A stretch of 49,682 nt of DNA, taken from the NCBI RefSeq assembly GCF_009866965.1, contig NZ_SPKJ01000023.1:1-49682 (forward strand), read 5' to 3'. The notes beneath the pieces were generated by a model. That model did no database searches and was not told the origin of the DNA. It saw only the letters and a list, made by a program, of their open reading frames with translations. This stretch comes from Propylenella binzhouense (GTDB taxonomy: Bacteria; Pseudomonadota; Alphaproteobacteria; Rhizobiales; Afifellaceae). Position numbers and translations under genes: made by a program. Position 1 is the first letter of the stretch. Every line of letters begins with the position of its first letter. Positions 8,354 through 27,961 of the stretch are shown here, piece by piece.

Positions 8354-8395
8354 TTGCCCTGCACGGCGATCCACCGTACAATCTATCGCAGATTG
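8354..8395 (+). promoter_or_regulatory. Promoter and palindromic operator of the toxin-antitoxin operon
   Basis: TTGCCC (8354-8359), 17 nt, then TACAAT (8377-8382). A perfect inverted repeat, CAATCT-atcgc-AGATTG (8379-8395), overlaps the -10 element and runs into the GGAGG ribosome site (8395-8399). This arrangement fits autorepression by the antitoxin or the toxin-antitoxin complex. Confidence 0.7.
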
Positions 8396-8403
8396 GAGGT
8401 GAT

Positions 8404-8700: not shown

Positions 8701-8707
8701 CCGCCCC

Positions 8708-9579: not shown

Positions 9580-11535
9580 ATGACCATCGACAGCCAGACC
9601 AGCGACCGCCTGCTAACCGAGATCGAGCGGCAGCAGAAGTACCTCGACAAGTTGCCCGAGGACTTCGAGTTTCCGCTTTTCAATGCGGCTCAGGCTCTCG
9701 AGTCGCAGCGCCGTAGCGGCTACCGCAACACCGCCGCCGCCGCGCGCGAGATCGTCGACAACGCCATGGAGGCCGGCGCGAGCCGCATCGACGTCTGCCT
9801 CGCGAAACCTAAGCAGCTAAAGCAATATCAGCGCTCGGAATCGATCAACGCGATCGCGTTCATCGACAACGGCTCGGGCATGCTGCCGAAGATGGCGCAG
9901 TATGCGCTCTCCTGGGGTTCGGGCACCCATTTCGACGACCCCTCCTTCATCGGTAAGTTCGGCTTCGGGCTGCCGAACGCCTCGATCAACCAGACGCGTC
10001 AGGTCGAGGTTTATACCCGCACCAAGGCCGATGAACCGATCACCATGGCCAAGCTCGATGTCCGTGAGGTGAAGCAGCACGGGCTCCAGACCATCGGTGA
10101 CCCGGTCGAGGCTTCGTTGCCCGATTTCGTGCAAGCCTATCTCGACAAGCATGGGCTGCCCTTCGATCACGGGACCGTCGTGGTCTGGGTCGAGCCGGAC
10201 CGGCTCACCTACCGCACGCTGTCGACCATGCGCGAGCACCTGCTCGATGACTTCGGGGTGACATATCGTTATCTCCTGGATCGCGCCAGCATCTACATTG
10301 ATGGCAAGAAGGTCGAGCCGGTCGATCCGTTGTTCCTGACTCCAGGCGCCCGCTACTATTTGGACCCGGACAAGGGTGGAGCAGAGCAGAGCGCGGAATG
10401 GAACATTGCGGTCAAGTACGCGCTCGATCCCGAGACTGGTCAGATGGTGCTGTCGAGGGTCGCGGACGAGGCCGAACTCGACGCCGCAGATCCCAACGTC
10501 GTCGCCATGGGCGCGATCTATGTGCGGGTCAGCCGCTTTCCTTACGGCTTCGCCGAGCACAAGGATGGTAAGGCCGAGACTGACGCCCATCGCCGCTTCG
10601 AGATCCGTAAGAGCCGACGCGGCATGGCCTTCGTGCGGGCCAAGCGCGAGATCGAGACCGTGGACGTCTTTCCCAAGTCGCTGCGCGATCAGGCGAAGGG
10701 ACTGGGCGACTGGCCACTCCTGCAGTCCTACGCCTATCACTGGGGCGTCGAGGTCCGCTTCGAGCCGGCGCTCGACGAGGTCTTCGGCATCACCAACGAC
10801 AAGCAGACGGTCCGTCCGATCGAGGACCTGTGGCGACTGTTTGCCAGCAAGGAGATCGGCATCGACGCGCAACTCGGTCGCGAGCAGACCTTCCAGCGCA
10901 AGATGCGCAAGGCTGAGAGCGACAAGCGCAAGGCGGCCGAAGCTCGCCAAGCTGACGCTCCCACCTTGGGCGAGGCGGCTGCCGCGAAGGCCGACAGCGT
11001 GGCGGGCCAGCGTCCGCGCGTCGCCGATCACGGCAAGGCTGACGCGCGGGAAGCGTTCGAGGAGGAAGCGAAGCGCCGGTCGAAGGTCAATAAGGTCTCA
11101 ATCGACGCTGCGCGGAAAGCGCTTGAGGATGAGGCCAAGAAGCGGCCCTATGTCATCGACTTCTACGACGAAGCGCGCGGGCCGTTCTACAAGCCGGAGT
11201 GGCGGCACGGCACGCAGGTGGCCGTTCTGATCAACCGCCAGCACGCTTTCTTCCAGACGCTCTATGGCCCACTTCTCAAGACGCCCGATGTCGGTCAGGC
11301 CAAGCACGCGCTCGATGTGCTGCTGATCGCCCTGGCTCGCGCCGAACTCACGGTCGACGACGAGCAGGCGTCGCTCTGGTACGAAGCGCAGCGCGAACGC
11401 CACTGGAGCAGCTTCCTCAACGACGCCTACCGTTCGCTCCAGCAGACGATGGCACCAGTGGACGAGGAGACCGCCGAGCACGAGACCGCTGGCAACCCAC
11501 CCGGCGAGGACGGCGACTTGGAGAAGGCGGCGTAG
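9580..11535 (+). CDS. paraMORC-type GHKL ATPase 1
   Basis: A 651-residue GHKL ATPase. Motif I is REIVDNAMEA (Glu57, Asn61), motif II DNGSGM (Asp96, Gly98, Gly100) and motif III GKFGFGLPNAS (125-134). An S5-like transducer region follows, with RRGMAFVRAKREIETVD; then a charged, Ala/Lys-rich linker (about 445-525) and a C-terminal helical domain (HAFFQTLYGPLLKTP). The order matches the MORC/paraMORC relatives of MutL described with restriction-like operons (Iyer, Abhiman and Aravind 2008). Start 9580 is preferred because GGAGG (9569-9573) is 6 nt upstream; ATG 9574 would abut it. It is first in the cluster and a paralogue of the gene at 12374, including the C-terminal domain. The family is thought to clamp or remodel DNA using ATP; the role here is inferred. 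Confidence 0.85.
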   Translation: MTIDSQTSDRLLTEIERQQKYLDKLPEDFEFPLFNAAQALESQRRSGYRNTAAAAREIVDNAMEAGASRIDVCLAKPKQLKQYQRSESINAIAFIDNGSGMLPKMAQYALSWGSGTHFDDPSFIGKFGFGLPNASINQTRQVEVYTRTKADEPITMAKLDVREVKQHGLQTIGDPVEASLPDFVQAYLDKHGLPFDHGTVVVWVEPDRLTYRTLSTMREHLLDDFGVTYRYLLDRASIYIDGKKVEPVDPLFLTPGARYYLDPDKGGAEQSAEWNIAVKYALDPETGQMVLSRVADEAELDAADPNVVAMGAIYVRVSRFPYGFAEHKDGKAETDAHRRFEIRKSRRGMAFVRAKREIETVDVFPKSLRDQAKGLGDWPLLQSYAYHWGVEVRFEPALDEVFGITNDKQTVRPIEDLWRLFASKEIGIDAQLGREQTFQRKMRKAESDKRKAAEARQADAPTLGEAAAAKADSVAGQRPRVADHGKADAREAFEEEAKRRSKVNKVSIDAARKALEDEAKKRPYVIDFYDEARGPFYKPEWRHGTQVAVLINRQHAFFQTLYGPLLKTPDVGQAKHALDVLLIALARAELTVDDEQASLWYEAQRERHWSSFLNDAYRSLQQTMAPVDEETAEHETAGNPPGEDGDLEKAA

Positions 11536-11588
11536 CGCCAACAGACGTTACGTCGAAGGCCAGCTTGGCAGGTCGCACCGCGGCCTGC

Positions 11589-11605
11589 TAGGCTGGCCCT
11601 AGTAG
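11589..11605 (+). promoter_or_regulatory. Dyad motif copy 2, upstream of the sigma-factor gene
   Basis: TAGGCTGGCCCTAGTAG matches 9520-9536 at 16 of 17 positions and lies 109 bp before the sigma-factor start. The flanking bases do not match copy 1, so the block itself appears conserved. Confidence 0.55.
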
Positions 11606-11713
11606 GTGTACAGCTCGAGACCAGTGTAGGTACGGCCAAGTGCCGTCATGTCCCCGGACGCTGCATCGGCCTTCAAGCTGATCTGAAGGCCAACGCAGCG
11701 AAAGGAGGACTCC

Positions 11714-12370
11714 GTGAAGAACGGCGTCTCGACGATCACGTTTGCCGCCCTGATACAGGCGGCCCTCACTGGCACCCCCAAGTACAATAACCAGCGCTTC
11801 GGTCTCGCGGTGCTCGCCTATGCCCGCCGCATGTGCCGGGCCCGTGCGCCTGACCTCCCTGATCATTTGATTGAGGATGTGGCACAGGAAGCGATTGCCA
11901 ATCTCTTTGCCTCCGGACCGAGCGCCCTCAGCATGACGCCGCCTATGAAACTGCTCCGGCACGCCATGCTCGCCGCCATCCGCAAGGTGCGGGCCGACCA
12001 CGCCCCTCCCGGCCAGCGCACGCGTCGCTACCGCGAGGAGCCTCGCGACCGGGTCGCGGCCGAGGACGCCGCGCGCATCCCGAACACCGCCACGATCGAG
12101 GCCGCGACCGTCAGGCAGGGCGAGCACGCGGCCATCGACGTCAACGACTTTCCCTGTCCCGCGGCGGAACGCGCTATCATGGAGGCCGAGCAGCGGATCA
12201 CGATCGACCGCGCGCTCGCCAAGTTGCCGCCGAACATCGCCCAGGCGCTTCGGCTCGTCCGTTTGGAGGAGCGGCCAATGTCGGAGGTGGCGGCCCTTGC
12301 CGGCATCAGCCGCTTCGTCCTGCATCGCCGCATTGAGCAGCACTGCGCCGTGTTCCGCATGGCGGCCTGA
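11714..12370 (+). CDS. Sigma-70-family (ECF-like) factor within the defence cluster
   Basis: A 218-residue protein. Residues about 25-95 look like sigma region 2 (FGLAVLAYARRMC, then HLIEDVAQEAIANLF, the conserved E/D-DxxQE-xxxxLF pattern). Residues about 165-212 look like region 4: RALAKLPPNIAQALRLVRLEE followed by the helix-turn-helix MSEVAALAGISRFVLHRRIEQH. A linker of about 70 residues lies between. The start is GTG 11714 with AAAGGAGG 6 bp upstream. No anti-sigma gene adjoins it. Its stop is 3 bp from the next ATPase start. It may switch on the cluster, or act as a DNA-binding subunit. A non-sigma HTH role is possible because region 2 is divergent. Confidence 0.75.
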   Translation: MKNGVSTITFAALIQAALTGTPKYNNQRFGLAVLAYARRMCRARAPDLPDHLIEDVAQEAIANLFASGPSALSMTPPMKLLRHAMLAAIRKVRADHAPPGQRTRRYREEPRDRVAAEDAARIPNTATIEAATVRQGEHAAIDVNDFPCPAAERAIMEAEQRITIDRALAKLPPNIAQALRLVRLEERPMSEVAALAGISRFVLHRRIEQHCAVFRMAA

Positions 12371-12373
12371 GCC

Positions 12374-14068: not shown

Positions 14069-14137
14069 CGGCTCCCCGCAGGATCGGCCATAGAATAGGA
14101 GGGTCGTGATCGGCCCAGAGGCGATTCTGGAGGCGGG

Positions 14138-16165
14138 GTGACGGCAGATAAGGACTTGTACGGGCCGGGGCGTCAGCGGCTCTTCTCCCCGTATCTCGCG
14201 CCGGGTGAGCGCGACCGCCTTCATGACGTTCTGGATTTTGGACGCGCCGTGCCACCCAGCTTCGCGAACGAGCTTCGCTCGCTCGCGCGGCGCTTTGTTG
14301 ACGATGGCGACAGTCTCAAGCTGCGGGCGATCTGCCTGCTCATAGCGGATCTCCACGAACAAGGTTGGCAGATCGACTTCGCCAAGGGTAGGATCACCTT
14401 TGCGCCGCCCGGCATCGGGCGCGAAAACCAGCAGAGCATCGAAGATATCAAAGAGCGCGTCCGCACCTCCTTGCAGGCGGCTCGCCAGCGGCAACTTGCC
14501 GAGCCATCCGTACGGCAGTTTCTCACACGCATGGAACGGCGCACGGCCCGGCCAGCCGGCCGGTTCTCCGTACTCGACTTGGTGGACAGCGGCGCCGACC
14601 TCGCTCGCGAAATTCGGGCGCTCTCACGCTTCGGCGATCTCGACCGTGAGGCTGCGCTCGCCCGCCTCATCGACCCGGTGATCGAGGTCTGTGAGGCCGG
14701 CGCCAAGTGCCCCGACACCGGCCTCGCTCTGACCGACATCTGGCGTTACTTCCGGCACACCTGGGCGCACGAGTATCGGGCCATTCCGGGGCGCCAGATG
14801 CTGGTGCTCGTCCGTAATGCCGCCAGGCCGCGCAGGCCGATTATCGGCATTGCCATGCTGGCGAGCCCGGTCATGCGTCTCGCCTGCCGCGATAATTGGA
14901 TCGGCTGGCTGCGAGAAGCTGCGCGGGATCGGGTTGAAACGGGCCTGTGGGATGCTCCGGCGCTCGGCGGCGCTCTTCTCGACCGTCTCACCGAGTCCAT
15001 CGCCAACATCCGCTCAGACGACTTGGTGACGGCAAAGGAGCTCAGGTCACCGTCTGAGGCCGTATGCCTGCGCTTGGAGCAACGCGCGGCCGGAGCAGCG
15101 GCTGCACGCGACGTCCAACTCCGAAGGCACTACGAGCAGCACCGGGACGAGGACGGCCGGGTGAAACCCCACCGTGGTGAGGTGAAAAGCGCCGGCCATG
15201 ACGTTGATTGGCGGCGCGCGTCGGAGGACCTCCTATTCGTCCGCAAGCGCGCCGAGAGCTTGGCACAGCTTCTTTTCGCCAAACGCACCTTCAACACGGC
15301 GCGCGTGGCGCGCGATCCGGTCGCTGGGCTGGAGAACCTATTCGCCTCCACTACGGGTCAGCGCGCGCTCGACATAGCCTTTGCCGAATTCCGCAAATCC
15401 GGCTTATCGAGCCAAGTCGCTGACGTAAGCATCTGCGGGGCGGTTCACCCCTACAATCAGTTGCTCGGCGGAAAGCTGGTTGCCTTGCTCCTCGCGTCTC
15501 GGGAGGTCAGCGACGCTTACGCCCGGCGCTACGGCGGGCAGGTCAGCGTAATAGCGTCGCAAATGGCGGGACGCCCGATCAGCAAACCCGCCGACCTGCA
15601 GATCCTGACCACGACCTCGCTCTATGGCGTCGGCTCCAGCCAGTACAATCGCCTCGCGCTAGCGAGTGCCGATCATCCTGAACTCGAATACGATTTGCGC
15701 TGGGGCGCAATTGGTAAAAGCTTGACTGGCGGCTTTGGAACACTGCACCTCGGGACAGAAACCGCCCACGCGTTACGTAGCATGGCTATGTTCCGGCACG
15801 ACGCCCGGCGCGTTAATAATCGCTTCGGTGAAGGTACTAGCCCAAGACTTCGCCAGATTCGCGAGGGTTTGGACGCGCTCGGCCTTAAAAGCGATTCCAT
15901 CCTTCACCACGCGACTCCCCGCCTGTTCTACGGCTGCGAACTCAACCCGCAGGCGCGCGAGGCGCTCGTGGGGCTGACGAGCGTCGAAGTACAGGGTCCC
16001 GACGTACGCAGCGTTGCCGCCGCATGGCGCCGGCGCTGGCTCAGCAAGCGCGTTCTGCGAGAGGAGACGCTGGTAAGGCTCTCCTCGCTCGGCCCCACCA
16101 GCGTCCTCGCCGCGCTCCACACCGATGCGAACGGCCAGTTCTCGCTGGCGCTCAACGATGGCTGA
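14138..16165 (+). CDS. DruA-like DUF4338 protein
   Basis: A 675-residue protein with the DUF4338 core of Druantia DruA. The pattern is LVRNAARPRRPIIGIAML and CRDNWIGW (about 228-258), then GAVHPYNQLLGGKLVALLL (about 434-452), ILTTTSLYGVGSSQYNRL (about 488-505), and VNNRFGEGTSPRLRQIREGL near 559. DruA is about 400 residues in typical Druantia type I, so this one has an N-terminal extension of some 190 residues and an insertion between the conserved blocks. The start is GTG 14138 with GGAGG 4 bp upstream. It lies 69 bp after the second ATPase. The biochemical activity of DUF4338 is not established to my knowledge. Confidence 0.85.
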   Translation: MTADKDLYGPGRQRLFSPYLAPGERDRLHDVLDFGRAVPPSFANELRSLARRFVDDGDSLKLRAICLLIADLHEQGWQIDFAKGRITFAPPGIGRENQQSIEDIKERVRTSLQAARQRQLAEPSVRQFLTRMERRTARPAGRFSVLDLVDSGADLAREIRALSRFGDLDREAALARLIDPVIEVCEAGAKCPDTGLALTDIWRYFRHTWAHEYRAIPGRQMLVLVRNAARPRRPIIGIAMLASPVMRLACRDNWIGWLREAARDRVETGLWDAPALGGALLDRLTESIANIRSDDLVTAKELRSPSEAVCLRLEQRAAGAAAARDVQLRRHYEQHRDEDGRVKPHRGEVKSAGHDVDWRRASEDLLFVRKRAESLAQLLFAKRTFNTARVARDPVAGLENLFASTTGQRALDIAFAEFRKSGLSSQVADVSICGAVHPYNQLLGGKLVALLLASREVSDAYARRYGGQVSVIASQMAGRPISKPADLQILTTTSLYGVGSSQYNRLALASADHPELEYDLRWGAIGKSLTGGFGTLHLGTETAHALRSMAMFRHDARRVNNRFGEGTSPRLRQIREGLDALGLKSDSILHHATPRLFYGCELNPQAREALVGLTSVEVQGPDVRSVAAAWRRRWLSKRVLREETLVRLSSLGPTSVLAALHTDANGQFSLALNDG

Positions 16166-16265
16166 GCCGGACGTCATTTTCGGGTTGGCACCGCGAATAA
16201 GGACGGTGGCCAGCGCAATGATCCTTCGGCCCCGGCTGTGTGGTCGAGTGCTCTAGATTTAGGAG

Positions 16266-16308
16266 CCACTTCAACTCTATCGTGCATCGCGGGAAGGCTA
16301 TGAAGTGG
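16266..16308 (+). other. Inverted repeat in the gap before the 975-residue gene
   Basis: CCACTTCA (16266-16273) and TGAAGTGG (16301-16308) form a perfect 8-bp inverted repeat with a 27-nt spacer, 31 bp before the next start codon. It could be a leader hairpin or an operator. It is the only sizeable gap (174 bp) inside the second half of the cluster. Confidence 0.4.
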
Positions 16309-16339
16309 TCGCCACAGGAGGCAGAGGGGATATCGTGAA

Positions 16340-19267
16340 ATGCACCGAGGACATATGTCCTCTCAAGGCGAGCCGACGGAACCAGACCTCGGGGTGATAA
16401 CGTCGCCCCCCGGCGTCCCTACTCTTAATGACTGGCAGAGGCGGCTCGAAGAGCATTTCGCCTCCCTGTCGGCCGTGCGGCGCGTGCGTAACCTCCCGCT
16501 TTTCGCGCTCGAGCATGGGCTAGATCGCCAAGAGCGCGCCAGCATCGCGACGGCTCTTCACGAAAGCCTGCGATCCGGCGAGCGGCTCGGTAAGCACTGG
16601 CTCGTCTGGGTGGTCTACGCGGCCGAGCAGGGCTACGACTACGACGGCGAGGAGTTCTGGTCGACCTTCGAGGCCAGAACACCTTTGTGGACCCAGCGCG
16701 CCGACCGCACCTCGCTGCGCAACTGGTTTCGCAAGTTCCACACCGCCTACGGCGGGTTCAAGCCCACCGGCCCCTGGGCGAACTGGTTCTCGATCATCGC
16801 CTGGCCGATCACACACGCGCTGCTGCCCAAGGATCTCCAGCAGCAGCTGGCCCGCGCCCTCTACCAGCTTCGCTTTCAGGTCGCCGCCCGCATCGAGAGC
16901 CCCCCAGCCGACCTCGGCCGCTATATCGCGCGCTTCTCCCAAGATGCCAGTTCGCGGTTTCGCAACTTCCTCGAACAAGAGGAGATCGTCGGCCGCATCG
17001 TCCTAGCGCTATTGGGCGGACGCGCCGCCGAAGCGCAGCACTTCATCCACCCCCCGACGCTGGCGCGGGTCGTCGAGGACTTGGAGCGGGCTCGAAGCGC
17101 CCGGGCCTGGCTACGCGACGCTCGTCAGGCGGTTGAGCGCGCCCAGATGAAGGGAGCGTCCCGAGGACTGGTGGTCACGCGCGGCCAGGCCGCCAACGAG
17201 CAGTCCGAGCCACAGAAGTCCGCCGCACCCTACATTCGTCCGCGCCTAACGCTGCGTCGCACGGGAACGTCCGAATGGACGCCAGTCGTCGAACTGCCGA
17301 GCTTGAGGCCGATTGCCGACCTCCATCCCGATGTCGGTCATTTCCTTCGGCGAACGCGATGCACGGTGGCCGGCTCGGCCGGCGCGCTCCCAGCCGGATG
17401 GCTCGCCTCAGGCGATCAGCGGCGCGTCCTCGCCGAATGGCCCGCGACCGGCCAACCGATGGTCCGATTCGAGAGCCAGAATGCCGTCGTCGAGAATCTT
17501 CTGCAAAGCGATGGCTGCATCAGCTCAGGCCCGCTCTGGGTCTTCCGCGTCGGTCCTGACGGCCTCGCGCATGAGATCATCGGCCGCTTGGTGCGACCAG
17601 GCCGAACCTACGTGCTGGTCTCAAGAGAGACGCTCCCTATACCTGCCCTCGCCGAGGCGGCGGTTCTCCGCTGCGCGGGCGTGCAGGCGTGGGTGCTCCG
17701 GGTGCCGGATCAACTCTCGGCCGCTGACATCGTCGCCTTCAAGGCCCTTGGTCTCTCCGTCGCCCAGACGGTCCGGATTCGGCCCGCTGGCCTCGATGCC
17801 CGCCGCTGGGATGGCGAGGGATTTAGCGAATGGGTTGAAGGTGAAACACCCTGCTTTGCCCTAGAGAGCGACTTCCCTCTCGCCGCGTACGACCTTCGCC
17901 TGAACGGAGAACAGTCCGTCCGTGTGTCGGCCGCCGGCGGACAGTTGCCACTGTTCATCAAGCTGCCGGCGCTCTCGACCGGGCAGCATCAGCTTATGGT
18001 CCGCGCCATCAGAGCCGACGGTGGTGGCGACGCCGCGTTGGCGCCGGTCGAAGGTTTCGTGTCGCTCGTCGTGCGTCCACCGCAGCCGTGGAGCACCGGG
18101 AGCGCGGGTCACAACGGCCTCGTCGTAACAGCGGAGCCGGCCGAGCCCAGCCTGGATCGCCTCTGGGAAGGCGAAGTGGCACTCCAAATCTTCGGGCCTT
18201 CTGGGCGCCGCGTCAGCGCGTGGGTCGAACTGCTCGACGGCGGAGGCGATCAGTTGTCCAGCGAGAAGGTCGCCGAACTCACGCTACCAACGACGCCAAG
18301 CGCATGGGAGCGCGCGTTAGCATCGTTCCTGCAGAGAGACCGTGATCCCTGGGCGTATCTGAGCGCGAGCGCCGGCACTCTCATCGTCGATGGCGAGGCG
18401 CTCGGCAGCCACCGCGTCCCGCTGACCCGCGACGTTAGCCCCGTCCGCTGGGTGTGGCACAAGACGCAGCGCTCGACGGCGCTTCGCCTTGTCGATGACC
18501 ACGAGGGTGACGATCCCCTCCATGTAATGTTCTATCCCTTCGCCGCGCCCGCCGAGGGGGTGCCGATCAGTCGCGACGTCCTCGCGACCGCGTGGGTTCC
18601 CGACGGGATTGGCGGCCTTTGCGTCGCCAGTTACGGCGCTCAGCGTCAAGCCCTCGTCGCGAGCATGCCGCAAGTAGTGGGCGGGTTCGCCGGACTGCTC
18701 GTCCAGCCGGTCATAAGGTCGCTACCGACCGGCGACGAGGCTGTGCTATTGCTCCACGACCTCATTCAACTCTGGTCTGGCGCGCGCCTCACCGGCCCCC
18801 TGGCTGGCCAGCGCCGTGACCGAGCCGTAGAGGGTCTCGCGGAACAGCTTATCCGATTGCTGTGCGGCGCCGACTGGGCGGCGGCCGAGGCTGCCTACAA
18901 GCGGTCATCGCGCGGCGAGCACGATCTGCGGCGCTTGGCAGACCGGGTCGGCGGGCCGCCGGCTTTTGCCTTCGTTCTCGCGCGCGATGCCATTCTCTAC
19001 CGATCAATGGGCCGGGACGAACGGCTCAATCACTTTGCTGGCCTAGCCGATCGGTACGGCGTTGCCCGGCGGGAGGCCTGCTCGGCGGCGCTCGACCTGT
19101 GTGACACCATGGGTCGCTACGCACCGCTGGATCGGCCGGCGGTCAGCCGTCTCGTCGCCGCCTCGCGGCCTTGGCCTGCCGTCATCCGGGGTGCGCGGCT
19201 GATCCACATCGCGACCCCGGTGCGCAGCGCCGCGCCTCTTGCGACGTCCGCGCCGAGGCGCGGATGA
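16340..19267 (+). CDS. Large cluster protein of unknown function (975 aa)
   Basis: I do not recognise this protein. The N-terminal third (about 25-230) is helical and rich in Trp, with segments such as WVVYAAEQGYDYDGEEFW, TSLRNWFRKFHTAYGG and WANWFSIIAWPITHALLP. The middle and C-terminal parts look beta-rich (VSRETLPIPAL, EGFVSLVVRPPQPW) and then helical. There is no Walker motif, signal peptide or convincing transmembrane helix. The start is ATG 16340, or ATG 16355, which has GAGGA close upstream. It overlaps the next gene by ATGA. It occupies the place where Druantia types carry their accessory proteins (DruB/C/D or DruH), but I cannot align it to them from memory. Confidence 0.8.
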   Translation: MHRGHMSSQGEPTEPDLGVITSPPGVPTLNDWQRRLEEHFASLSAVRRVRNLPLFALEHGLDRQERASIATALHESLRSGERLGKHWLVWVVYAAEQGYDYDGEEFWSTFEARTPLWTQRADRTSLRNWFRKFHTAYGGFKPTGPWANWFSIIAWPITHALLPKDLQQQLARALYQLRFQVAARIESPPADLGRYIARFSQDASSRFRNFLEQEEIVGRIVLALLGGRAAEAQHFIHPPTLARVVEDLERARSARAWLRDARQAVERAQMKGASRGLVVTRGQAANEQSEPQKSAAPYIRPRLTLRRTGTSEWTPVVELPSLRPIADLHPDVGHFLRRTRCTVAGSAGALPAGWLASGDQRRVLAEWPATGQPMVRFESQNAVVENLLQSDGCISSGPLWVFRVGPDGLAHEIIGRLVRPGRTYVLVSRETLPIPALAEAAVLRCAGVQAWVLRVPDQLSAADIVAFKALGLSVAQTVRIRPAGLDARRWDGEGFSEWVEGETPCFALESDFPLAAYDLRLNGEQSVRVSAAGGQLPLFIKLPALSTGQHQLMVRAIRADGGGDAALAPVEGFVSLVVRPPQPWSTGSAGHNGLVVTAEPAEPSLDRLWEGEVALQIFGPSGRRVSAWVELLDGGGDQLSSEKVAELTLPTTPSAWERALASFLQRDRDPWAYLSASAGTLIVDGEALGSHRVPLTRDVSPVRWVWHKTQRSTALRLVDDHEGDDPLHVMFYPFAAPAEGVPISRDVLATAWVPDGIGGLCVASYGAQRQALVASMPQVVGGFAGLLVQPVIRSLPTGDEAVLLLHDLIQLWSGARLTGPLAGQRRDRAVEGLAEQLIRLLCGADWAAAEAAYKRSSRGEHDLRRLADRVGGPPAFAFVLARDAILYRSMGRDERLNHFAGLADRYGVARREACSAALDLCDTMGRYAPLDRPAVSRLVAASRPWPAVIRGARLIHIATPVRSAAPLATSAPRRG

Positions 19268-20334: not shown

Positions 20335-23300
20335 AAAGACACATGGCCCGAACAATCCAAGACACGATCGATCATCTTCACGCTTCGCTGAAGGACTACA
20401 TCGAAGCAACCTATCATATCGGGAACCCGGCTCTGATCTGGCAACGGCGTAAACTCCTCGAGCGTGCGGGCGTTACTCACCAAATACCCTATCTCGAGTC
20501 GACCCCTAAGTATCAGGCCGGGAAACGGTTTGCCGAAATGAGCGGGCTACCGCCCGCAGCGCTCGCGATTTACACCACGCTGGCCAAGCCCGGAGACGAA
20601 GGTCCGAGGCTCCTGTTCGATCCGCCCTACCGGCACCAGGGCGACGCGATTACGCACGCGCTGATCGAGTCCAAGAACCTCGTCATCATGACTGGTACCG
20701 GCTCGGGCAAGACCGAGTCCTTCCTCATGCCGATCCTGGGCAAGTTCGCGCGCGAAGCCGCGGAGCGACCCGGCGGCTTCAAGCACAATGCCGTGCGCGC
20801 GCTCCTGCTCTATCCTATGAACGCGCTGGTCAATGACCAATTGGGGCGCCTCCGCGCGATCTTCGGGGACCCGCGACTGGTCGAGATGTTTCGCGGTTGG
20901 GCCCAGCGACCGCCGACTTTCGCCCGATATACGAGTCGTACGCCCTACGCCGGCGTGCGGTCCGGAAAGCGGGACGGCAAGAAGCTGGCCTCGTTCGAGG
21001 AGTTCTTCGTCGAGATCGAGCGGCAGGCGTCCGGGCCGTCGTCCGAGGAGCAGGCCCGCGCGGTGGAACTCCGCGCGCAGTTGAAGGCTCGTGGGAAATG
21101 GCCCGCCAAGCCCGATCTCAAACGTTGGTTCGGCGACAAGGGCGCGCGTTGGGTGAACCCGAAGACCGGCGAGTTCCTGCGCGCGGTCACGCTCGAAAAC
21201 GATTCGGAGTTGATCACCCGACACGAGACTCAGGTTGCGGCCCCCGACCTCCTAGTCACCAACTACTCGATGCTCGAGTACATGATGATGCGCCCGATCG
21301 AGCGGCCGATCTTCGACCAGACTCGCGCGTGGCTGGCGAGCAATCCGGGCGAGAAGTTCACCGTCGTGCTCGACGAAGCGCACCTTTACCGCGGCGCCGC
21401 GGGAGCCGAGGTCGGATTGCTGTTGCGTCGCTTGCGTGATCGGCTGGACATTCCGGTCGAGCGCTTCCAGGTCATTTGCGCGACCGCCAGCTTCAGCAGC
21501 CGAGACTACGCCAGCGACTTCGGCGCTCAGTTGTCGGGTGTGCCCGCGGAGAGCTTTGTTCCCGTCACCGGCAAACTCGATCTGCGCTCGCACGCCGCTT
21601 CCGGGTCGGTGCACGAGGCCGAACTGCTCGCATCGCTCGATCTTGTGCGCTTCTACGCAGCCGATCCCGCTGATCGCGCGGCCGCCGTCGCACCCCTCCT
21701 CGCGCATCGATCCGTCGAGCCCACCGGCGATGTTGAGAAGGACCTCCACGCTGCGCTCGTCGACTTCCCACCGCTCGGCCTGCTCGTGAACATGACCATG
21801 AAACAAGCGCGGCCCGTCGCGAGCCTCGGCGGCGCGCTCTTTCCTGACAGCCCGGCGCTCGCCGATCAGGCGGTGACAGCCCTGCTGGCGCTCGGCAGCG
21901 TCGCCCGCGAGTCGCCCGAGGCGGCCGGCCTGCTTCCGTGCCGGATCCACAATTTCTACCGCGGCCTGCCGGGACTGTGGGTGTGCATGGACGCCGATTG
22001 CACCGAACTGACGGACGAGGAGCGGTCGGGGATCTGCGGCCGCATGTACAGCCAGCCGCGGGAGACGTGCGGGTGCGGTGCGCGCGTCCTGCAGTTTTAC
22101 ACCTGCCGCAACTGCGGTGCCGCGCATGCACGGGCGCATTCCGATGACGTCGACACGCCGAACGCGCTCTGGTCGGAGCCCGGCCGCCGGCTCAGGATGC
22201 AGGGTGGCGAAACAGCGCCGTTGCTTGACCTCGACCTGCTCCTCGAAGCGCCGCGCCTAACCGACCTAGCCGAACTCGCCGACTACGACCTCGAGACAGG
22301 CCGCCTAAATCCGCCTAAGCTGGGTGCTCGCGCGCGGTCGGTCTACATCCGCAAGGACCGCATCACGCCGGCCGCCGACGATGACGGCGAGGTCGACACC
22401 CGGGCGGAGGTTCGCGGCCAGTTCACCCCATGTGCGGTCTGCGGCGAGAGCGCCGCCTACGGCCGCACCTCGATCCAGGATCACCAGACCAAGGGTGACC
22501 AGCCGTTCCAGGCGCTCGTAGCGCGGCAGATACAGGTCCAACCGCCCGCCCCGCAACCGGCAACCGGTTTCGCGCCACTTCGCGGTCGCAAGGTCCTGGT
22601 GTTTTCCGATTCCCGGCAGGTCGCCGCGCGGCTGGCGCCCAATTTGCAGATGTACTCCGTGCGAGACGCGCTGCGCTCGCTTATCGTCTGGGGCTTCGAC
22701 CGGCTGCGGCAGCATCCGATGATCCCGGCGATGCTGAGCCTCGACGACCTCTACCTCTCGGTCCTGCTCGGCTCCAAGGGGCTCGGCGTCCGCCTTCGGC
22801 CCGAACTCAAGCCGGGAGAGAGCTTCGCTGCCGAGGCGAGCGTCGACACGGCGGTCAGGGACGGCGCGCTCGACGACCCCATGAAGCTCCAGATGCTCTG
22901 GATGGAGGTGCGCAACGAGACCCCGCCGGAGGCGCTGCTCGACGACATCGTCAAGACCGTGCGCGACCGCCATCTCGGCTTAGAGGCGCTCGCGCTCGCC
23001 TCGCTGCGAGAGGCAGCGAACAAGGCCAAGGACGTGCACGCGTTGCCCGCGATCGCGGGCGTTGCTGAGACCAATGAGGACAAGATCGCGCTCGCGCGCG
23101 CATGGCTGCGCTGCTGGCGTTCCGAAGGATTCTGGCTGAACGCCATGCCGAGCACCTGGTACAAGCGGCCAAAGGGCCGGGGGACCAGCGTCAAAGCGCG
23201 CAAGGGCTCTTTCCAGGCGATGCGAACGGTGCTCCCCGACAAGGCCGCTTACAAGATCTTCGACAAGAGCTGGCACCCGACGCTGATGACCATATTCGCC

Positions 23301-25907
23301 GCCGATATGGAAAGCGGGTACAAGCGGCTCGCCGGGAAGAATCTCTCGCTTGAGCTGGACGGAGATTGGGTGCGCTGCTCCGCCTGCCGCTCGGTGCACC
23401 GGCCAGTTCCCAAGCTCCCGCATTGCCTGGATTGCGGAAGCGCGGACGTGGCCGCGCTCGACCCCGAAAACGATCCCGTCTTTGCCGCCCGCAAGGGCTA
23501 CTACCGGTCTCCGGTCGTCGCCGCGCTGACCGATCCCAGCGGCAAGCCGATGGCACTCATCGCGGCCGAACACACGGCGCAACTGAACGCCCCGCAAAGC
23601 GAGGACGTGTTCTCCAAGGCGGAAGAGAACGAGTTGCTGTTCCAGGACGTGGAGATGAACTGGGGCGCGGCAGCGAAGCGTGCAACCGCCATCGACGTGC
23701 TGTCGAGCACGACGACGATGGAGGTCGGCATCGACATCGGGGCGCTCTCTGGCGTGGCCCTTCGCAACATGCCCCCTGGGCGCGCCAACTACCAGCAGCG
23801 CGCCGGCCGCGCCGGCCGCCGCGGCAACGCCGTCGCGACGGTCGTGGCCTTCGGGAGCGCCGATAGTCACGACGAGCATTACTTCAGCGAACCAGACGCG
23901 ATGATTGCGGGGCCGGTCGTCGACCCCAAGCTCACGCTCGACAACCCCGACATCGTCCAGCGGCACATCCGGGCCTTCCTGCTCCAGAGCTACCACCAGG
24001 ATCGGATTCCCGCGTTCGATCCGACGGCGGATCCTAACCTGTTCTCGGTTCTCGGCACGATCGAGGACTTTCGGACCACGACCGCCCGACTCAACCGAAG
24101 TGACTTCGCCGATTGGCTGGCTTCGAATGCTCCGGCGCTTCGGGCGCGCGTGGCGAGTTGGATCCCGCACCAATTGACTCAGGGGGATCGCGCCAAACTG
24201 CTCGACGAGATGGCGTCCGACTGCTTGGCGGCGATCGATGAGGCGATGCGATCGCAGGCGCTGGGCGGAGACAAGTTCACCGAAGAGACGGAGGACACCA
24301 ACGACAACTCCGTCGAGGAGAGCGCTGAGGCACCTCCCGAAGCGGGCGAGGAAGCGCCGCCTCAGAAGGCGCTCACCGGGAAGCTCTTGGACCGGCTGCT
24401 CTATAAGGGAGTGCTCCCGCGCTACGCGTTCCCAACCGATGTGGCGCCCTTTAACGTGTTCGATGTCGACCGTTCGACCCCCCACCGCCCGATCATGAAG
24501 TTCGCCCCGTCGCAGTCGCTACCCGTTGCGCTTTCGCAGTACGCGCCCGGCAAGACGGTCTGGATCTCGGGCAAGTGCTACACGTCGGGGGCGATCTATT
24601 CGCCGATGGCGGAGGATCGCTACGATGCCTGGCAGAGTCGTCGCCTCTATCGCGAGTGCTCGGAATGTAGCTTCGCCGAGACGGTACCGCTCGACGCCGG
24701 GCTTGAGCCTGGGGTTGCCAAGGACTGCTACGCGTGCGGCGCGGAAGGGACGTTCGGGCCGACCCGCTACTGGCTGCGCCCGCCGGGGTTCGCGCATCCC
24801 GTCTACGAAGAGGAATTAACCTCTCCCGACGACATGCCGGAGACGGCGTACGCGACGCGCGCCAAGCTGACGATGCCGACGCCCGCCGACGACGCGAAGT
24901 GGATCGCGGTCAACGAGCGCATCCGCGCCATGCCCGACCGCAAGCATCTGCTCGTCTCGAACACGGGGCCCAAGCACGACGGCTACAACTACTGCACCAA
25001 ATGTGGGCGGATCGAAGCGACGGCCGAAAGTTCCGCGGCGATGAGCGGCCCCCACCGTAAGCCCTATCCCAACGACAAGGAGCCGGACTGCCCAGGGTCC
25101 GGCACCACGCGCCACCTGGTTCTCGGCACGGACTTCATCACTGACATTGCGCTCTTCTCGCTGCGGGTGGCGGCCCCGCTCAAGCTGAAGCCAGGCTTTT
25201 ACCCGACCGATGTGGCGCTTCGTACCGTCAGCGAAGCGCTCGCGAAAGCGGCCTGCGAAATGTTAGAAATCGAAGCCGGCGAGCTAATGGCGGAGTACCG
25301 ACCGGCACTCACGCCGGGTGGTCGCAACGGCCTCGAGGCGGAGATTTTCCTCTACGATACGCTCCCGGGGGGCGCCGGCTTCGCGGGCCAACTGGCGGGG
25401 CAAGGCGAGGAGTTGTTCCAACGAGCTCTAGCGCTCATGAAGACCTGCCCGGAGAGTTGCGATGCATCCTGCTATCGCTGTCTGCGCAGCTTCAAGAACA
25501 AGTTCGAGCACGGCTTCCTCGACCGCCATGTCGGTGCTGAACTGCTCGACTACCTGCTTCACGGTGAAATACAGCCGTTCGACCCGGGACGCATCAAGGC
25601 GTCGACGGAGCTACTGAAACAGGATTTGGAGCGTCAAGCAGACAGCACGAAGTTCACGCTGGAAGAGGAGATCAGCGTACCAGGTGTAGGCCAAGTGATC
25701 GTTCCCATCCTAGCCACCCGACCAGACGGTCGCCGCTACGCCATTGCATTGTCGGGCGCGCTCACCACCGATCATCCCGCTGACCCCCTGATCGCGCAGA
25801 TGCGCGAGGAATGGGATGGAGTCACTGTGATCTCAGTCAATGAATTGCTGGTGCGCGGTAACCTGCCTGCCGCCACTCGCGCGGTGCAGAGCCAGATCGC
25901 GAACTAA
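20331..25907 (+). CDS. DruE-like DEAH helicase with DUF1998
   Basis: A 1858-residue SF2 helicase. The N-terminal half has Walker A MTGTGSGKTES (about 120-130), YPMNALVNDQLGRLR, NYSMLEYMMMR, LDEAHLYRGAAGAE (DEAH, about 346) and motif III ATASF. The second helicase lobe carries VEVGIDIGALSGVALRNMP and QRAGRAGRRG (about 1156). Cys pairs suggest zinc sites (CGCGARVLQFYTCRNCGAAH, CSACRSVHRP, YCTKCGR). The C-terminus is a DUF1998 domain with YDTLPGGAGFA and the CPESCDASCYRCLRSF cluster (about 1705). Helicase plus DUF1998 in a single chain of this size is the DruE layout, while DISARM splits the two between DrmA and DrmB. The start is ATG 20331, overlapping the previous stop. Confidence 0.9.
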   Translation: MKRHMARTIQDTIDHLHASLKDYIEATYHIGNPALIWQRRKLLERAGVTHQIPYLESTPKYQAGKRFAEMSGLPPAALAIYTTLAKPGDEGPRLLFDPPYRHQGDAITHALIESKNLVIMTGTGSGKTESFLMPILGKFAREAAERPGGFKHNAVRALLLYPMNALVNDQLGRLRAIFGDPRLVEMFRGWAQRPPTFARYTSRTPYAGVRSGKRDGKKLASFEEFFVEIERQASGPSSEEQARAVELRAQLKARGKWPAKPDLKRWFGDKGARWVNPKTGEFLRAVTLENDSELITRHETQVAAPDLLVTNYSMLEYMMMRPIERPIFDQTRAWLASNPGEKFTVVLDEAHLYRGAAGAEVGLLLRRLRDRLDIPVERFQVICATASFSSRDYASDFGAQLSGVPAESFVPVTGKLDLRSHAASGSVHEAELLASLDLVRFYAADPADRAAAVAPLLAHRSVEPTGDVEKDLHAALVDFPPLGLLVNMTMKQARPVASLGGALFPDSPALADQAVTALLALGSVARESPEAAGLLPCRIHNFYRGLPGLWVCMDADCTELTDEERSGICGRMYSQPRETCGCGARVLQFYTCRNCGAAHARAHSDDVDTPNALWSEPGRRLRMQGGETAPLLDLDLLLEAPRLTDLAELADYDLETGRLNPPKLGARARSVYIRKDRITPAADDDGEVDTRAEVRGQFTPCAVCGESAAYGRTSIQDHQTKGDQPFQALVARQIQVQPPAPQPATGFAPLRGRKVLVFSDSRQVAARLAPNLQMYSVRDALRSLIVWGFDRLRQHPMIPAMLSLDDLYLSVLLGSKGLGVRLRPELKPGESFAAEASVDTAVRDGALDDPMKLQMLWMEVRNETPPEALLDDIVKTVRDRHLGLEALALASLREAANKAKDVHALPAIAGVAETNEDKIALARAWLRCWRSEGFWLNAMPSTWYKRPKGRGTSVKARKGSFQAMRTVLPDKAAYKIFDKSWHPTLMTIFAADMESGYKRLAGKNLSLELDGDWVRCSACRSVHRPVPKLPHCLDCGSADVAALDPENDPVFAARKGYYRSPVVAALTDPSGKPMALIAAEHTAQLNAPQSEDVFSKAEENELLFQDVEMNWGAAAKRATAIDVLSSTTTMEVGIDIGALSGVALRNMPPGRANYQQRAGRAGRRGNAVATVVAFGSADSHDEHYFSEPDAMIAGPVVDPKLTLDNPDIVQRHIRAFLLQSYHQDRIPAFDPTADPNLFSVLGTIEDFRTTTARLNRSDFADWLASNAPALRARVASWIPHQLTQGDRAKLLDEMASDCLAAIDEAMRSQALGGDKFTEETEDTNDNSVEESAEAPPEAGEEAPPQKALTGKLLDRLLYKGVLPRYAFPTDVAPFNVFDVDRSTPHRPIMKFAPSQSLPVALSQYAPGKTVWISGKCYTSGAIYSPMAEDRYDAWQSRRLYRECSECSFAETVPLDAGLEPGVAKDCYACGAEGTFGPTRYWLRPPGFAHPVYEEELTSPDDMPETAYATRAKLTMPTPADDAKWIAVNERIRAMPDRKHLLVSNTGPKHDGYNYCTKCGRIEATAESSAAMSGPHRKPYPNDKEPDCPGSGTTRHLVLGTDFITDIALFSLRVAAPLKLKPGFYPTDVALRTVSEALAKAACEMLEIEAGELMAEYRPALTPGGRNGLEAEIFLYDTLPGGAGFAGQLAGQGEELFQRALALMKTCPESCDASCYRCLRSFKNKFEHGFLDRHVGAELLDYLLHGEIQPFDPGRIKASTELLKQDLERQADSTKFTLEEEISVPGVGQVIVPILATRPDGRRYAIALSGALTTDHPADPLIAQMREEWDGVTVISVNELLVRGNLPAATRAVQSQIAN

Positions 25908-25924
25908 TACCCCGCTGCGGCTGC

Positions 25925-27961
25925 GTGAGTGAGATACGCGTGATCCAGATCCTAGGTGTTCAGGAAGGCCAGGAACATGAGGCGGCGATCCATCTTCGTC
26001 GCCTCATGCTCAATCGGTGGCCGGACCTCGCCCAGAGCAAGGTAGACATTGTAAAGATATTCGTCGGGCTGAAATTGTATGGCTACAGGGTCGAGGATCT
26101 CGACCTCGTCGTCATTGGCAACTTCGCCAGTCCACGTCCGTTTGATGTTGAGTTCCAATTCCACCCCCGAGACGGAGAGCCGTTCGTTCCGAAGAGCGCC
26201 AGCGTGAAGAACTTCGCTCTGGTGGTCGAGGTTAAATCCCATGACGCCACCGGTGTCCGATTCGAAAACCGGGTCGCGTCGGTCCGGTACGTTCGGAACG
26301 GTCGTTCGACATGGGAATGCGTGACGGAAAAGAACCGAACGCAGATGTTCGAGTTCAAGAAGTATCTGTCCCGCCAGGGCGTCGAGCGGGTTCACGTCCA
26401 GGACCTCGTTCTCTTCACGGGCCTTCGGGAGAGCGATTTACCCAAGCGGCCCCACAACTGCGTCGCCGGTGACGCAAGCTTCGAACGTGTCCTGAACGTC
26501 CTCGGGCAAATCTCGCGACCCGTGCGCAAAGGAAGCGCGGTCGACCTGATTTTTGGTTCTGATGATGTCTTCCGGGAGCTTTTGTCGCCGAACTTCCCGT
26601 TGTTCGAGGAGTTGGAGCCAACGCCGCTCGATCGTCGACGCATGGACATGATCGCCAAGCGCTCGCTCCCAGACGCTTGGCTGGACGATCTTGGTGAACG
26701 CCAAGTCATCCTCAAAGGCCGCGGCGGGGTCGGAAAGACCGTTATCATCCTTCAGATGGCCTATCGCGCATACGAGTTGCGCCAATTGCGGTCGCTCGTC
26801 TTAACCTTCAACAAGGCCCTTGTCGCTGATCTGCGTCGAACCATGGCGCTTCTCGGCGTACCGCGCGGCGTCGGGGGTGGCGGCATCGGTGTTGAAACGG
26901 TTCACAGCTTCTTCGGCCGGCTGATGCTGGGGCTTGGCGTCATCAACTCGTATGATGGCTTTCTAGAAGGCTACGACGGCCATAAGGCGACGTTACTGAA
27001 CTATCTCGAGAGTGGTGCCATCAGCCCTGGCGACCTTGACGCCCTTCGCCAACGGCAACCGTCCGACTTCGACTGGGATCTGGTTCTTGTCGACGAAGGG
27101 CAGGATTGGCCACGGGATGAAGTTGCGATCCTGCGCGCGGTTTTTGGTCCCGATCGGCTGACCGTCTCCGACGGTGTCGACCAGTTCGTGCGCGAGTCGG
27201 TTGCCGACTGGTCGACCGGAGTCGGTAAGTCCTCGCTCAGGGCGCGTCGCCTTACCCGGTGCATGCGAATGAAAGCCAATCTCGCGGCTTTCGTCGGCGA
27301 CATGGCGGTTCATCTCGGCCTTGAGGGCTGGGACCTTGAGCCCAATTCTGAGGCGTCGGGCGGCCGGGTGATCATCGTCGAGGGCGACCTGGCATCCGAC
27401 CCGGCGATGATCAAGCGACTTTGCGCCGAAGCGCGTGATCTCGGTAACTATCCCGTCGACATGCTCGCGTGCGTGCCGCCTTCGATGGTCGATCCCTCAG
27501 GGCCTGATCAGCTATGCCGGCCTGCATCGCAGTTCGTCAAAGCGGGTGGTGAGGTCTGGGACGGCACCTCGCGAGACATTCGCGAGCATTTTCCCACGCA
27601 CCGCGATCAACTGCGGTTCGTCCAATACGACTCCTGCCGCGGTTTGGAGGGATGGACCACGATCAACTACGAACTTGACGGCCTGTGGGAGTACAAGCGG
27701 CGCCAGTGGCTGGTAGAGCGTCACACAGTCGATGACCTATACCAAACGGCTGACGAAATGGCGCGAGCCCATGCATCTCGCTGGGTGATGATTCCGCTCA
27801 CGCGATCAATCGATACTCTGGTGATAAACGTGGGACTACAGCAGAGCTCCTTTAAGGAGGCGCTGCTTAAGACGTCGGCTATGCGCGGTGACTTCGTCCA
27901 ATGGCTCAGGGTTCCCGCTCAGGCGGAACCGGCCCCGCAAACGTTCGGGAGCCCGCCCTGA
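25925..27961 (+). CDS. NERD-like nuclease fused to SF1 (UvrD/DUF2075-like) helicase
   Basis: A 678-residue protein. The N-terminus resembles a NERD or PD-(D/E)xK nuclease: VEDLDLVVIG (Asp58/Asp60), then LVVEVKSHD (Glu102-x-Lys104). An SF1 helicase follows with Walker A LKGRGGVGKTV (about 263-272), FNKALVADLRR, VDEGQDWPRDE (DEGQD, about 394), SCRGLEGWT (about 572) and a motif VI-like LTRSIDTLVI (about 624). It starts at GTG 25925, 17 bp after the helicase stop, and is probably the last gene of the cluster. An IS21 remnant abuts the stop, so the final few residues (about TFGSPP) may come from the insertion and the native C-terminus may be lost. Confidence 0.85.
   Translation: MSEIRVIQILGVQEGQEHEAAIHLRRLMLNRWPDLAQSKVDIVKIFVGLKLYGYRVEDLDLVVIGNFASPRPFDVEFQFHPRDGEPFVPKSASVKNFALVVEVKSHDATGVRFENRVASVRYVRNGRSTWECVTEKNRTQMFEFKKYLSRQGVERVHVQDLVLFTGLRESDLPKRPHNCVAGDASFERVLNVLGQISRPVRKGSAVDLIFGSDDVFRELLSPNFPLFEELEPTPLDRRRMDMIAKRSLPDAWLDDLGERQVILKGRGGVGKTVIILQMAYRAYELRQLRSLVLTFNKALVADLRRTMALLGVPRGVGGGGIGVETVHSFFGRLMLGLGVINSYDGFLEGYDGHKATLLNYLESGAISPGDLDALRQRQPSDFDWDLVLVDEGQDWPRDEVAILRAVFGPDRLTVSDGVDQFVRESVADWSTGVGKSSLRARRLTRCMRMKANLAAFVGDMAVHLGLEGWDLEPNSEASGGRVIIVEGDLASDPAMIKRLCAEARDLGNYPVDMLACVPPSMVDPSGPDQLCRPASQFVKAGGEVWDGTSRDIREHFPTHRDQLRFVQYDSCRGLEGWTTINYELDGLWEYKRRQWLVERHTVDDLYQTADEMARAHASRWVMIPLTRSIDTLVINVGLQQSSFKEALLKTSAMRGDFVQWLRVPAQAEPAPQTFGSPP

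Follow-up and report, generated by a model that had tools for sequence, protein, structure and literature searches.

We analysed a stretch of 49,682 nucleotides from Propylenella binzhouense (positions 1-49,682 of contig NZ_SPKJ01000023.1, assembly GCF_009866965.1; hereafter the window), in which eight genes, all in the same direction, occupy positions 9580-27961 in the order GHKL1, SIG, GHKL2, DruA, X, DruD, DruE and NERD-SF1. Profile matches place this cluster strongly within Druantia, as a variant derived from type I, and the reading that we favour, with a probability of about one half, is that of a defence system built of exchangeable modules on the Druantia type I helicase core, in which a pair of clamp ATPases would act with DruA and which would have its own sigma factor. 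By homology, the DruA/DruD/DruE core is the known part of the cluster, the new parts are the recurrent GHKL-DruA module and the unit formed by the sigma gene and its leader RNA, and parts of the whole recur across many bacterial groups in differing combinations. The identity is strong; the mechanism is one that we infer.

Genes of the cluster

PADLOC Druantia type I profiles cover DruA, DruD and DruE nearly full-length, at 943, 517 and 2070 bits, respectively. We file the cluster as a variant derived from type I, and not as strict type I, because DruB and DruC were sought and not found: neither profile gave a PADLOC match among the eight genes (at E <= 0.1 for DruB; in the case of DruE, among the best 25 of 39 matches listed). 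The genes are as follows.

9580..11535, + strand: GHKL1, MORC/MutL-like ATPase, 651 amino acids (aa); Pfam HATPase_c_3 50.5 bits, motif alignment, tree
11714..12370, + strand: SIG, extracytoplasmic function (ECF)-like sigma factor, 218 aa; NCBIfam TIGR02937 41.8 bits, Pfam Sigma70_r4 23.2 bits
12374..14068, + strand: GHKL2, MORC/MutL-like ATPase, 564 aa, partner gene of long DruA; Pfam HATPase_c_3 62.4 bits, DruA adjacency
14138..16165, + strand: long-form DruA (DUF4338), 675 aa; PADLOC DruA1 943.1 bits over residues 9-664
16340..19267, + strand: X, 975 aa, in the DruB/DruC slot; modelled with helical ends and a beta-rich middle
19264..20334, + strand: DruD; PADLOC DruD1 517.5 bits, the match beginning at ATG 19264
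20325..25907, + strand: DruE, YprA-family DEAH helicase with MZB/DUF1998, 1860 aa; PADLOC DruE1 2069.6 bits over residues 7-1858
25925..27961, + strand: superfamily 1 (SF1) helicase with an N-terminal PD-(D/E)xK (NERD-like) region, 678 aa; invariant residues, PADLOC C3a187 NERD+UvrD 16.8 bits

Four junctions are tight, namely SIG-GHKL2 (+3 nucleotides, nt), X-DruD (-4 nt, ATGA), DruD-DruE (-10 nt) and DruE-NERD (+17 nt), and the remaining gaps measure 69-178 nt. A preliminary description of this DNA had listed eight co-directional genes with tight junctions and related them to Druantia; the layout is confirmed at these coordinates, and profile searches of the eight proteins bear out the kinship by matching DruA, DruD and DruE. 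The genes it listed are real, but it left DruD unnamed and starts had to be corrected (the sixth gene begins at ATG 19264). Its labels 'DruA-like' and 'DruE-like' identified both proteins rightly, if too cautiously, as both match type I profiles nearly full-length, and its view of an 'unclassified' system outside Druantia I-III falls with the outright matches of DruA, DruD and DruE to type I. Its other observations, intact GHKL motifs in two proteins, a DUF4338 core, a helicase and DUF1998 in one chain and a nuclease-helicase fusion, are taken up with the proteins below.

The GHKL motifs are indeed intact: nine residues (D62, N63, D94, G96, G98, G123, G126, G128 and Lys378) are unchanged in all 28 aligned GHKLs, both window proteins included, while the catalytic position 59 holds E in 27 of them and D in one. 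Lys378, invariant in that alignment, is a candidate S5-type catalytic lysine. The GHKL ATPases MutL and MORC are DNA clamps. Among solved structures, those nearest to the GHKL profile are MORC2, MORC4 and MORC3, followed by MutL. The cluster GHKLs are likely DNA clamps as well, given this analogy and the looping proposal of Iyer 2008 (PMC2292703).

The DUF4338 core of DruA scores 116.8 bits with Pfam PF14236 (DUF4338/DruA). Short DruA proteins comprise 404-410 aa in Escherichia coli, Pseudomonas putida pKF715A and Nitrosococcus watsonii pNWAT01, the pKF715A-like form occurring in 64 of 5426 E. coli genomes; by profile, what sets the long form apart is an added N-terminal extension and about 147 added internal residues (profile positions 270-416).

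X gave no PADLOC, Pfam or NCBIfam match at E <= 0.1 but aligns with the X of N. watsonii at 711 bits (phmmer). Its hhalign similarity to DruB is weak (probability 32%, E 5e-4, 204 columns), compatible with a remote link, and that to DruC is 0.1%, the DruC set having been partly chosen by position; phmmer found no match between X and the DruC of E. coli or P. putida. The idea that X is a fused DruB-DruC finds no support in these comparisons. The structure model of X has a low pTM of 0.49; five Foldseek matches reach E <= 0.001, and beta-rich proteins make up all of these and the greater part of the entries listed after them, many being Ig-, FN3- or macroglobulin-like by title.

DruE carries DEAD, Helicase_C and MZB (which we take to be the former DUF1998) in a single chain of 1860 aa, as had been described, and its runner-up profile is DruE2 at 600.8 bits. 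Type I DruE is predicted to carry an inactive Vsr domain, according to Bell et al. (PMC12458937). In the last protein, the N-terminal D58, D60, E102 and K104 are invariant in 13/13 aligned sequences, as are the Walker A and B residues. Pfam detects no NERD domain in it, so its nuclease label stays putative, backed by the invariant residues and by a related protein of class B (defined below) that does score as NERD in Pfam; the fusion noted earlier thus stands in that qualified form.

Modules in related loci

One genome per species was scanned with the window DruA, and the best 80 of 126 relatives (L003-L082) were mapped with up to 10 kb per side; component profiles built from these loci were run on six-frame open reading frames of all 80. 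A GHKL gene lies directly upstream of DruA on the same strand in 70 of the 80, spread, judging by record titles, over eight phyla (Pseudomonadota, Acidobacteriota, Bacteroidota, Verrucomicrobiota, Desulfobacterota, Myxococcota, Actinomycetota and Gemmatimonadota). The ten others are L012, L027 and L070, in which no partner was seen, and seven DruA/FtsK loci in which the end of FtsK scores as SspH. As the sample starts from the window DruA, it is silent on how often such GHKLs occur without DruA.

Short-DruA systems behave differently: none of eight (L087, L088, L090, L094, L127, L135, L154 and L155) has a GHKL in the examined flank, against 70/80 for long DruA (Fisher P = 7e-7, overstated, as are all locus P values here, because the loci are related). 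Six of the eight have X-DruD-DruE and two DruB-DruC with DruE; outside the eight, the short-DruA loci L096, L136 and L137, with few or no partners, also lack GHKL. Since L087 combines X-DruD-DruE with NERD-SF1, its comparison with the window leaves as the main difference the replacement of short DruA by GHKL1-SIG-GHKL2-long DruA.

Distances between homologous proteins correlate closely within two groups of genes: 0.933 for GHKL2-DruA (n = 66), 0.971 for DruD-DruE (25), 0.956 for X-DruD (12) and 0.986 for X-DruE (7). Between the groups the values are 0.506 for GHKL2-X (23), 0.562 for DruA-X (24), 0.610 for DruA-DruE (30) and 0.551 for GHKL2-DruE (29). GHKL2-DruA and X-DruD-DruE thus look like separately inherited modules. 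Swaps can be seen in single pairs: the window and L003 share 69% identity in DruA and 76% in GHKL1 but 20% in X, while the window and L068 share 56% in GHKL1, 29% in GHKL2 and 31% in DruA.

Among the 70 GHKL-DruA loci, 37 form class A (DruD/DruE without SNF2), 30 of them with X; L054 is counted here, its filing in class B having rested on a 49-bit match elsewhere. In L046 and L050 a DruB homologue (hhalign 98%) takes the place of X, and whatever occupies the DruC slot in L046 and its relatives was not confirmed as DruC (14%). Class B (X-SNF2-c8-NERD-DruE) numbers 13 loci, 11 with X and eight with DruE on the same contig (L006, L008, L009, L011, L017, L024, L048 and L060); its c8 is a DruD homologue (hhalign 97.8%). 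The remaining 20 show no DruD, DruE or SNF2 within the examined flank, although L023 and L038 have X and L043 has a DUF1998 half. A genome-wide DruE search covered 14 of these 20: ten loci (L004, L007, L028, L029, L036, L037, L045, L066, L072 and L073) lie in nine genomes without a DruE-like match above 50 bits, L042, L061 and L079 have one on another contig, and L034 has a class B set about 14-28 kb beyond DruA.

The nuclease gene beside DruE also varies. In 38 loci with DruE it is NERD-SF1 in 13, PD-(D/E)xK (DruK/Cas4-like) in 11 (including three cut at the locus end, at 53-63 bits), both in none and neither within the examined flank in 14, two of which change with longer flanks (L005 to NERD, L068 to PD-(D/E)xK). 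This distribution suggests an exchangeable nuclease.

Searching other genomes for the gene order, as the preliminary description had proposed, found similar arrangements. In L068, GHKL1, SIG, GHKL2, DruA, X, DruD and DruE succeed one another as in the window, and a PD-(D/E)xK gene then takes the place of NERD. In L005 the eight components are all present but divided between two divergent operons, NERD being split over two open reading frames. The pairing of a two-GHKL module with a sigma factor, likewise described before, is conserved elsewhere too (see below). Exchangeable modules, the rule linking sigma factor and second GHKL and the leader RNA go beyond that description.

The viral contig L153 carries GHKL-DruA-X-DruD-DruE, and a pattern scan of viral contigs found no GHKL1. 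A plasmid search with GHKL2 returned 25 records, four at 42-57% identity (Paracoccus, two Roseivivax, Leisingera), which also hold long DruA, and 21 at <= 30%.

Several further combinations were observed. In L030-L033, L057, L059 and L069, which have no GHKL, long DruA is accompanied by c17 and by an FtsK protein whose end resembles SspH, a second DruA partner, and the archaeal plasmid L095 has the same c17/FtsK/long-DruA set adjoining a DruE. The c12 family (361-447 aa) lies near GHKL-DruA in seven loci, including L006:12555-13718, whose member has no Pfam or NCBIfam match. In one Cyclobacteriaceae metagenome-assembled genome (L066, L072), SIG-GHKL-GHKL-DruA is followed by two gene families, whose L072 members resemble TIR (33.1 bits) and, weakly and below the cut-off, Piwi (20.6 bits). 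Four genomes of the window's order (L156-L159) have X and an SNF2 helicase with no DruA match within 20 kb, and on a Sinorhizobium medicae plasmid (L092) an IS3 element interrupts DruE.

Sigma factor, promoter-like elements and leader RNA

Two GHKLs occur in 17 loci (14 of the 80, the window and plasmids L091 and L093), and all 17 have a sigma-like gene, which sits between the two GHKLs or immediately ahead of them, or else lies convergently behind DruA. By comparison, one of 52 single-GHKL loci (L034) has a sigma gene (Fisher P = 3e-15). The sigma profile was built from 16 of the 17, so the telling part is its silence in 51/52 single-GHKL loci together with its untrained matches in L037 (1.4e-7) and L034 (1.2e-4). 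In a GHKL tree of 69 loci (L010, L023, L052, L067 and L081, each with a single partial GHKL and no sigma match, were left out), the 17 first GHKLs all fall in one clade of 45 (support 1.0), 13 in one subclade (support 0.999) and four elsewhere in that clade, with partners in other subclades; the GHKL1 subclade was seen only as the first of two GHKLs. The window SIG lies just below cut-offs (41.8 vs 42.9 bits for TIGR02937, 23.2 vs 24.1 for Sigma70_r4); relatives in L066 (63.2 bits) and L036 (61.0) exceed that of TIGR02937, and six others are below it or lack a TIGR02937 match.

The control elements around GHKL1 and SIG are as follows.

9504..9534, + strand: promoter-like element upstream of GHKL1, GCGCACA-N13-TTGGCC-n-TAGT; like element in close SIG+ loci
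9549..9561, + strand: CGGC-GCCG inverted repeat just before the GHKL1 ribosome-binding site; kept in SIG+ loci
11573..11603, + strand: second promoter-like element, upstream of the sigma gene; untrained matrix match, 19.6 bits
11611..11716, + strand: structured leader RNA ending at the SIG start codon; fold, covariance model R1, pair counts

An element of the form (G/C)CGCAC-N13/14-YTGG-TAG precedes GHKL1 in 8/8 close SIG+ loci, the window included, and GCGCACA-N(12-14)-TTGGCC has a single exact match in the window's own 4.7-Mb genome. With a matrix trained on these GHKL1-upstream elements, a second site of at least 14 bits appears in the GHKL1-SIG gap, at a nearly constant place, in five of eight loci, against 0.058 expected from loci without SIG; at a threshold of 11 the background is high (at least 355 matches outside the training loci), and the counts given here do not use it. 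The inverted repeat lies upstream of GHKL1 in 10/11 SIG+ loci and before both GHKL1 and SIG in 9/11; the window's second copy is at 11633-11645, within the leader, and in L091 and L093 the corresponding site before GHKL1 holds another inverted repeat. Control of the helicase module by the sigma factor was considered and discarded: the 300 nt before X hold no site of >= 8 bits in the window, L003, L005, L006, L008 or L011, and L068 has one match of 11.2 bits there. Sigma-70 promoters and terminators show no excess over shuffles in 9200-28200.

Across eight loci, the 106-113 nt that lead up to the sigma start average 86% identity per alignment column, although the sigma proteins of the other seven share only 34-44% identity with that of the window. 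Window positions 11604-11713 fold with z = -3.14, and the leader is predicted to pair the Shine-Dalgarno sequence (GUCCCC/GGAGGAC). In a search of 44 of about 160 sources, covariance model R1, built on the eight loci, found five untrained leaders (L068, L045, L028, L093 and L091; 44.6-28.6 bits), which brings the leader to 13 loci, always ending at or within a few bases of the sigma start codon. This holds even in L091 and L093, where the sigma gene lies behind DruA on the other strand. Eight further matches, up to 28.3 bits, are antisense of the nearly self-complementary training leaders, which would leave the 28.6 bits of L091 unconvincing without its position, and three more have E of 0.3-0.8. 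Pair statistics use the 13 forward rows, 11 of 24 rows (antisense or chance) being left out, and are favoured by an alignment fitted to the structure: the cells concerned can pair in 92.2% of cases (83.9% after shuffling), double changes occur at 12 pairs, where shuffling gives 4.7 on average and 10 at most, and there are 23 extra pair types, a number that 9/500 shuffles reach and that compares with a shuffled 18.4. Helix H4, which hides the Shine-Dalgarno, is complete with its six pairs in six of the eight close loci, whereas L008 keeps five pairs, L011 two of four and the distant five loci three to five of five to six; this incomplete pairing makes Shine-Dalgarno gating the weakest part of the leader case. 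No Rfam family matches the leader at gathering scores, and among 385 genomes of the same class it occurs in one, the window's own.

Interpretation and comparison with known systems

In the reading that we favour, module 1 (GHKL2 and long DruA) would take the place that short DruA has in canonical Druantia I, module 0 (GHKL1, leader RNA and sigma factor) would be an add-on, and module 2 (X, DruD and DruE) would be the helicase effector, followed by one exchangeable nuclease gene. GHKL1 and GHKL2, which belong to different subclades, may form an ATP-gated heterodimeric clamp, MutL-alpha- or MORC-like, that closes on invading DNA. DruA, perhaps of GNAT fold, would recognise or chemically mark this DNA and couple the clamp to X-DruD, which would act as a bridge, DruE unwinding and NERD-SF1 cutting and resecting. 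The sigma factor would raise transcription of GHKL1 and of its own gene from the two like promoters, and the leader would gate its translation by hiding the Shine-Dalgarno. We infer every biochemical step, the order of events, any chemical mark and phage DNA as the target.

The DruA model (pLDDT 86.6) shows a possible helical insert at about 270-416. When the Foldseek list was re-aligned with VIA-align, rows 1-6 were all acetyltransferases (Z 8.7-7.8), the best being SpeG (Z 8.7, rmsd (root-mean-square deviation) 3.5, 148 residues). Since that Z is barely above the usual background, the possibly GNAT-like core is a lead. In BFVD, the model matches two giant-virus proteins of unknown function (1.9e-8 and 4.6e-7).

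A number of observations weigh against the favoured reading, the relatedness of the loci among them. The heterodimer cannot be general, because 52/69 tree loci have one GHKL. GHKL-DruA may work alone or with something else, as the ten loci without DruE-like genes genome-wide indicate. It is mainly the wider sets that set the modules apart: where all five components are present (seven loci), correlations are as high as 0.885-0.906 between modules and 0.969-0.986 within them. The long form of DruA is not GHKL-specific, since FtsK-type loci (7/10 of those without GHKL, and L095) hold it without GHKL. Among 398 independent genomes of the phylum, seven have DruA, three short and four long; the four are the window's own genome, L140 (GHKL), L139 (FtsK-type) and L138 (no partner seen), so that one of the three others has a GHKL. 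The promoter-like element before GHKL1 was not found in L028, L045 or L068. For the DruA fold, Foldseek returned nothing from the PDB at E <= 0.001, and Z 8.7 is little above the 7-8 typical of models without a true match.

A bolder form of the favoured reading, which we hold only tentatively and think less probable than not by some way, takes GHKL1, sigma and leader as a transferable alarm, gated by RNA, which arms a heterodimeric clamp of MutL-alpha-like type with a GNAT-fold DruA, GHKL-DruA as a general recognition chassis for at least three effector sets, and the leader as a new class of regulatory RNA in phage defence. The effector sets seen beside GHKL-DruA are X-DruD-DruE, X-SNF2-DruD-like-NERD-DruE and a DruB-containing one with DruD and DruE.

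The cluster could also consist of two independent neighbours, GHKL-sigma-GHKL-DruA being a system in its own right and X-DruD-DruE-NERD what remains of a Druantia I that has lost its short DruA. The ten GHKL-DruA loci without a DruE-like gene, the weak between-module correlation in the wide sets and the often divergent or convergent orientation of the modules would fit such a history. We consider it unlikely, as DruE/DruD or an SNF2-type effector lies within the flank in 50/70 GHKL-DruA loci (and 14-28 kb off in L034). Moreover, class A maps show no second DruA, though short DruA scores 134-150 bits with the same profile, and the short form is present where GHKL is absent; on both grounds the long DruA seems to substitute for the short one.

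Small GHKL-fold proteins, SpoIIAB and RsbW, are anti-sigma factors, and GHKL1 might similarly be a sensor and anti-sigma partner that releases the sigma factor upon a phage DNA or nucleotide signal, module 0 then being an alarm and not part of the clamp. The almost perfect co-occurrence of second GHKL and sigma speaks for this proposal, as do the GHKL1-SIG distance correlation of 0.963 (n = 11) and the separate travel of module 0, which follows from the 56% identity of GHKL1 against 29-31% for GHKL2 and DruA between the window and L068. Anti-sigma kinases are small, however, unlike the cluster GHKLs, which have 560-650 aa, are MORC-like and carry the candidate S5-type lysine, and single-GHKL systems do without this module; we give the proposal the same low credence as two neighbouring systems. 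An ordinary Druantia type I with unrelated upstream passengers, suggested by the type I scores of DruA, DruD and DruE, is very improbable and already contradicted by the GHKL adjacency in eight phyla with r = 0.93 to DruA, by the sigma/second-GHKL rule and by the leader RNA, the maps of 80 loci ruling out chance neighbours.

Around the cluster, a tRNA-Gly lies at 7975-8049, but an island formed by integration there was rejected, a second copy of the tRNA 3' end being absent from the window. Between it and the cluster, 8221-9214 encodes a pair of TacA-type antitoxin and GNAT protein (Pfam TacA1 55.1 bits, Acetyltransf_7 35.8 bits). Directly after the cluster, a fragment of IstB, an IS21 helper, at 28121-28564 is called DrmD by PADLOC (112.8 bits), whose DrmD model thus seems to take in IstB-like sequence. 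At 28892-32106 follow two genes (277 and 776 aa) that neither Pfam nor NCBIfam matches at E <= 0.1; PADLOC gives no more than a marginal match (E 0.07), to the second. With a predicted ArdC-type anti-restriction protein at 32737-33696 and a ParB-like protein at 35562-37718, this side of the neighbourhood is plasmid-like.

No paper in the literature searched, most subscription journals lying outside its scope, combines Druantia with a GHKL, GNAT or sigma factor. ARMADA/DISARM (Bell 2025 preprint, PMC12458937) resembles the window in its YprA-family helicase, and our class B relatives also pair this helicase with SNF2 and SF1 helicases. ARMADA joins a PglX-like methyltransferase to a BrxHII-like helicase; PADLOC, Pfam and NCBIfam searches of the eight window proteins gave no methyltransferase match, and the window has DruA, X and GHKL instead. 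The restriction-type operons of paraMORC1-5 and MORC described in the text of Iyer 2008 (PMC2292703) resemble the window in setting GHKL ATPases, there with S5, beside SF2 helicases and nucleases, but the window pairs two different GHKLs with DruA; 'sigma', 'NERD' and 'DUF4338' are absent from that text, and its figure has unnamed genes. MzaB of the MZA system shares the GHKL ATPase region at 46-58 bits, far under the family cut-off of 850 bits. PADLOC-DB 2.0.0, which does score DruA, DruD and DruE here, offers no more than a weak MzaB match for the GHKL gene adjoining long DruA, so annotation with that release would overlook the gene.

Should the GHKL clamp prove to be a functional component, it would link prokaryotic Druantia to the MutL/MORC clamps, including the reportedly antiviral MORC3 of animals, and hint at the role of DruA; for an anti-phage system, control through its own sigma factor and a folded leader would be unusual and directly testable. 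The closest known systems remain those of Druantia itself. Type I (druABCDE of E. coli E62, which lies near a tRNA and an integrase, and of P. putida pKF715A) has homologous DruA, DruD and DruE in the same order, while the window has X for DruB/DruC and a long DruA and adds GHKL1, sigma factor, GHKL2 and NERD-SF1, the canonical loci E62 and pKF715A having no GHKL. The short-DruA variant with X (N. watsonii pNWAT01, L087, L088, L135, L154 and L155) shares X, DruD and DruE, in L087 also NERD-SF1, and differs from the window in its short DruA and in having neither GHKL nor a sigma match.

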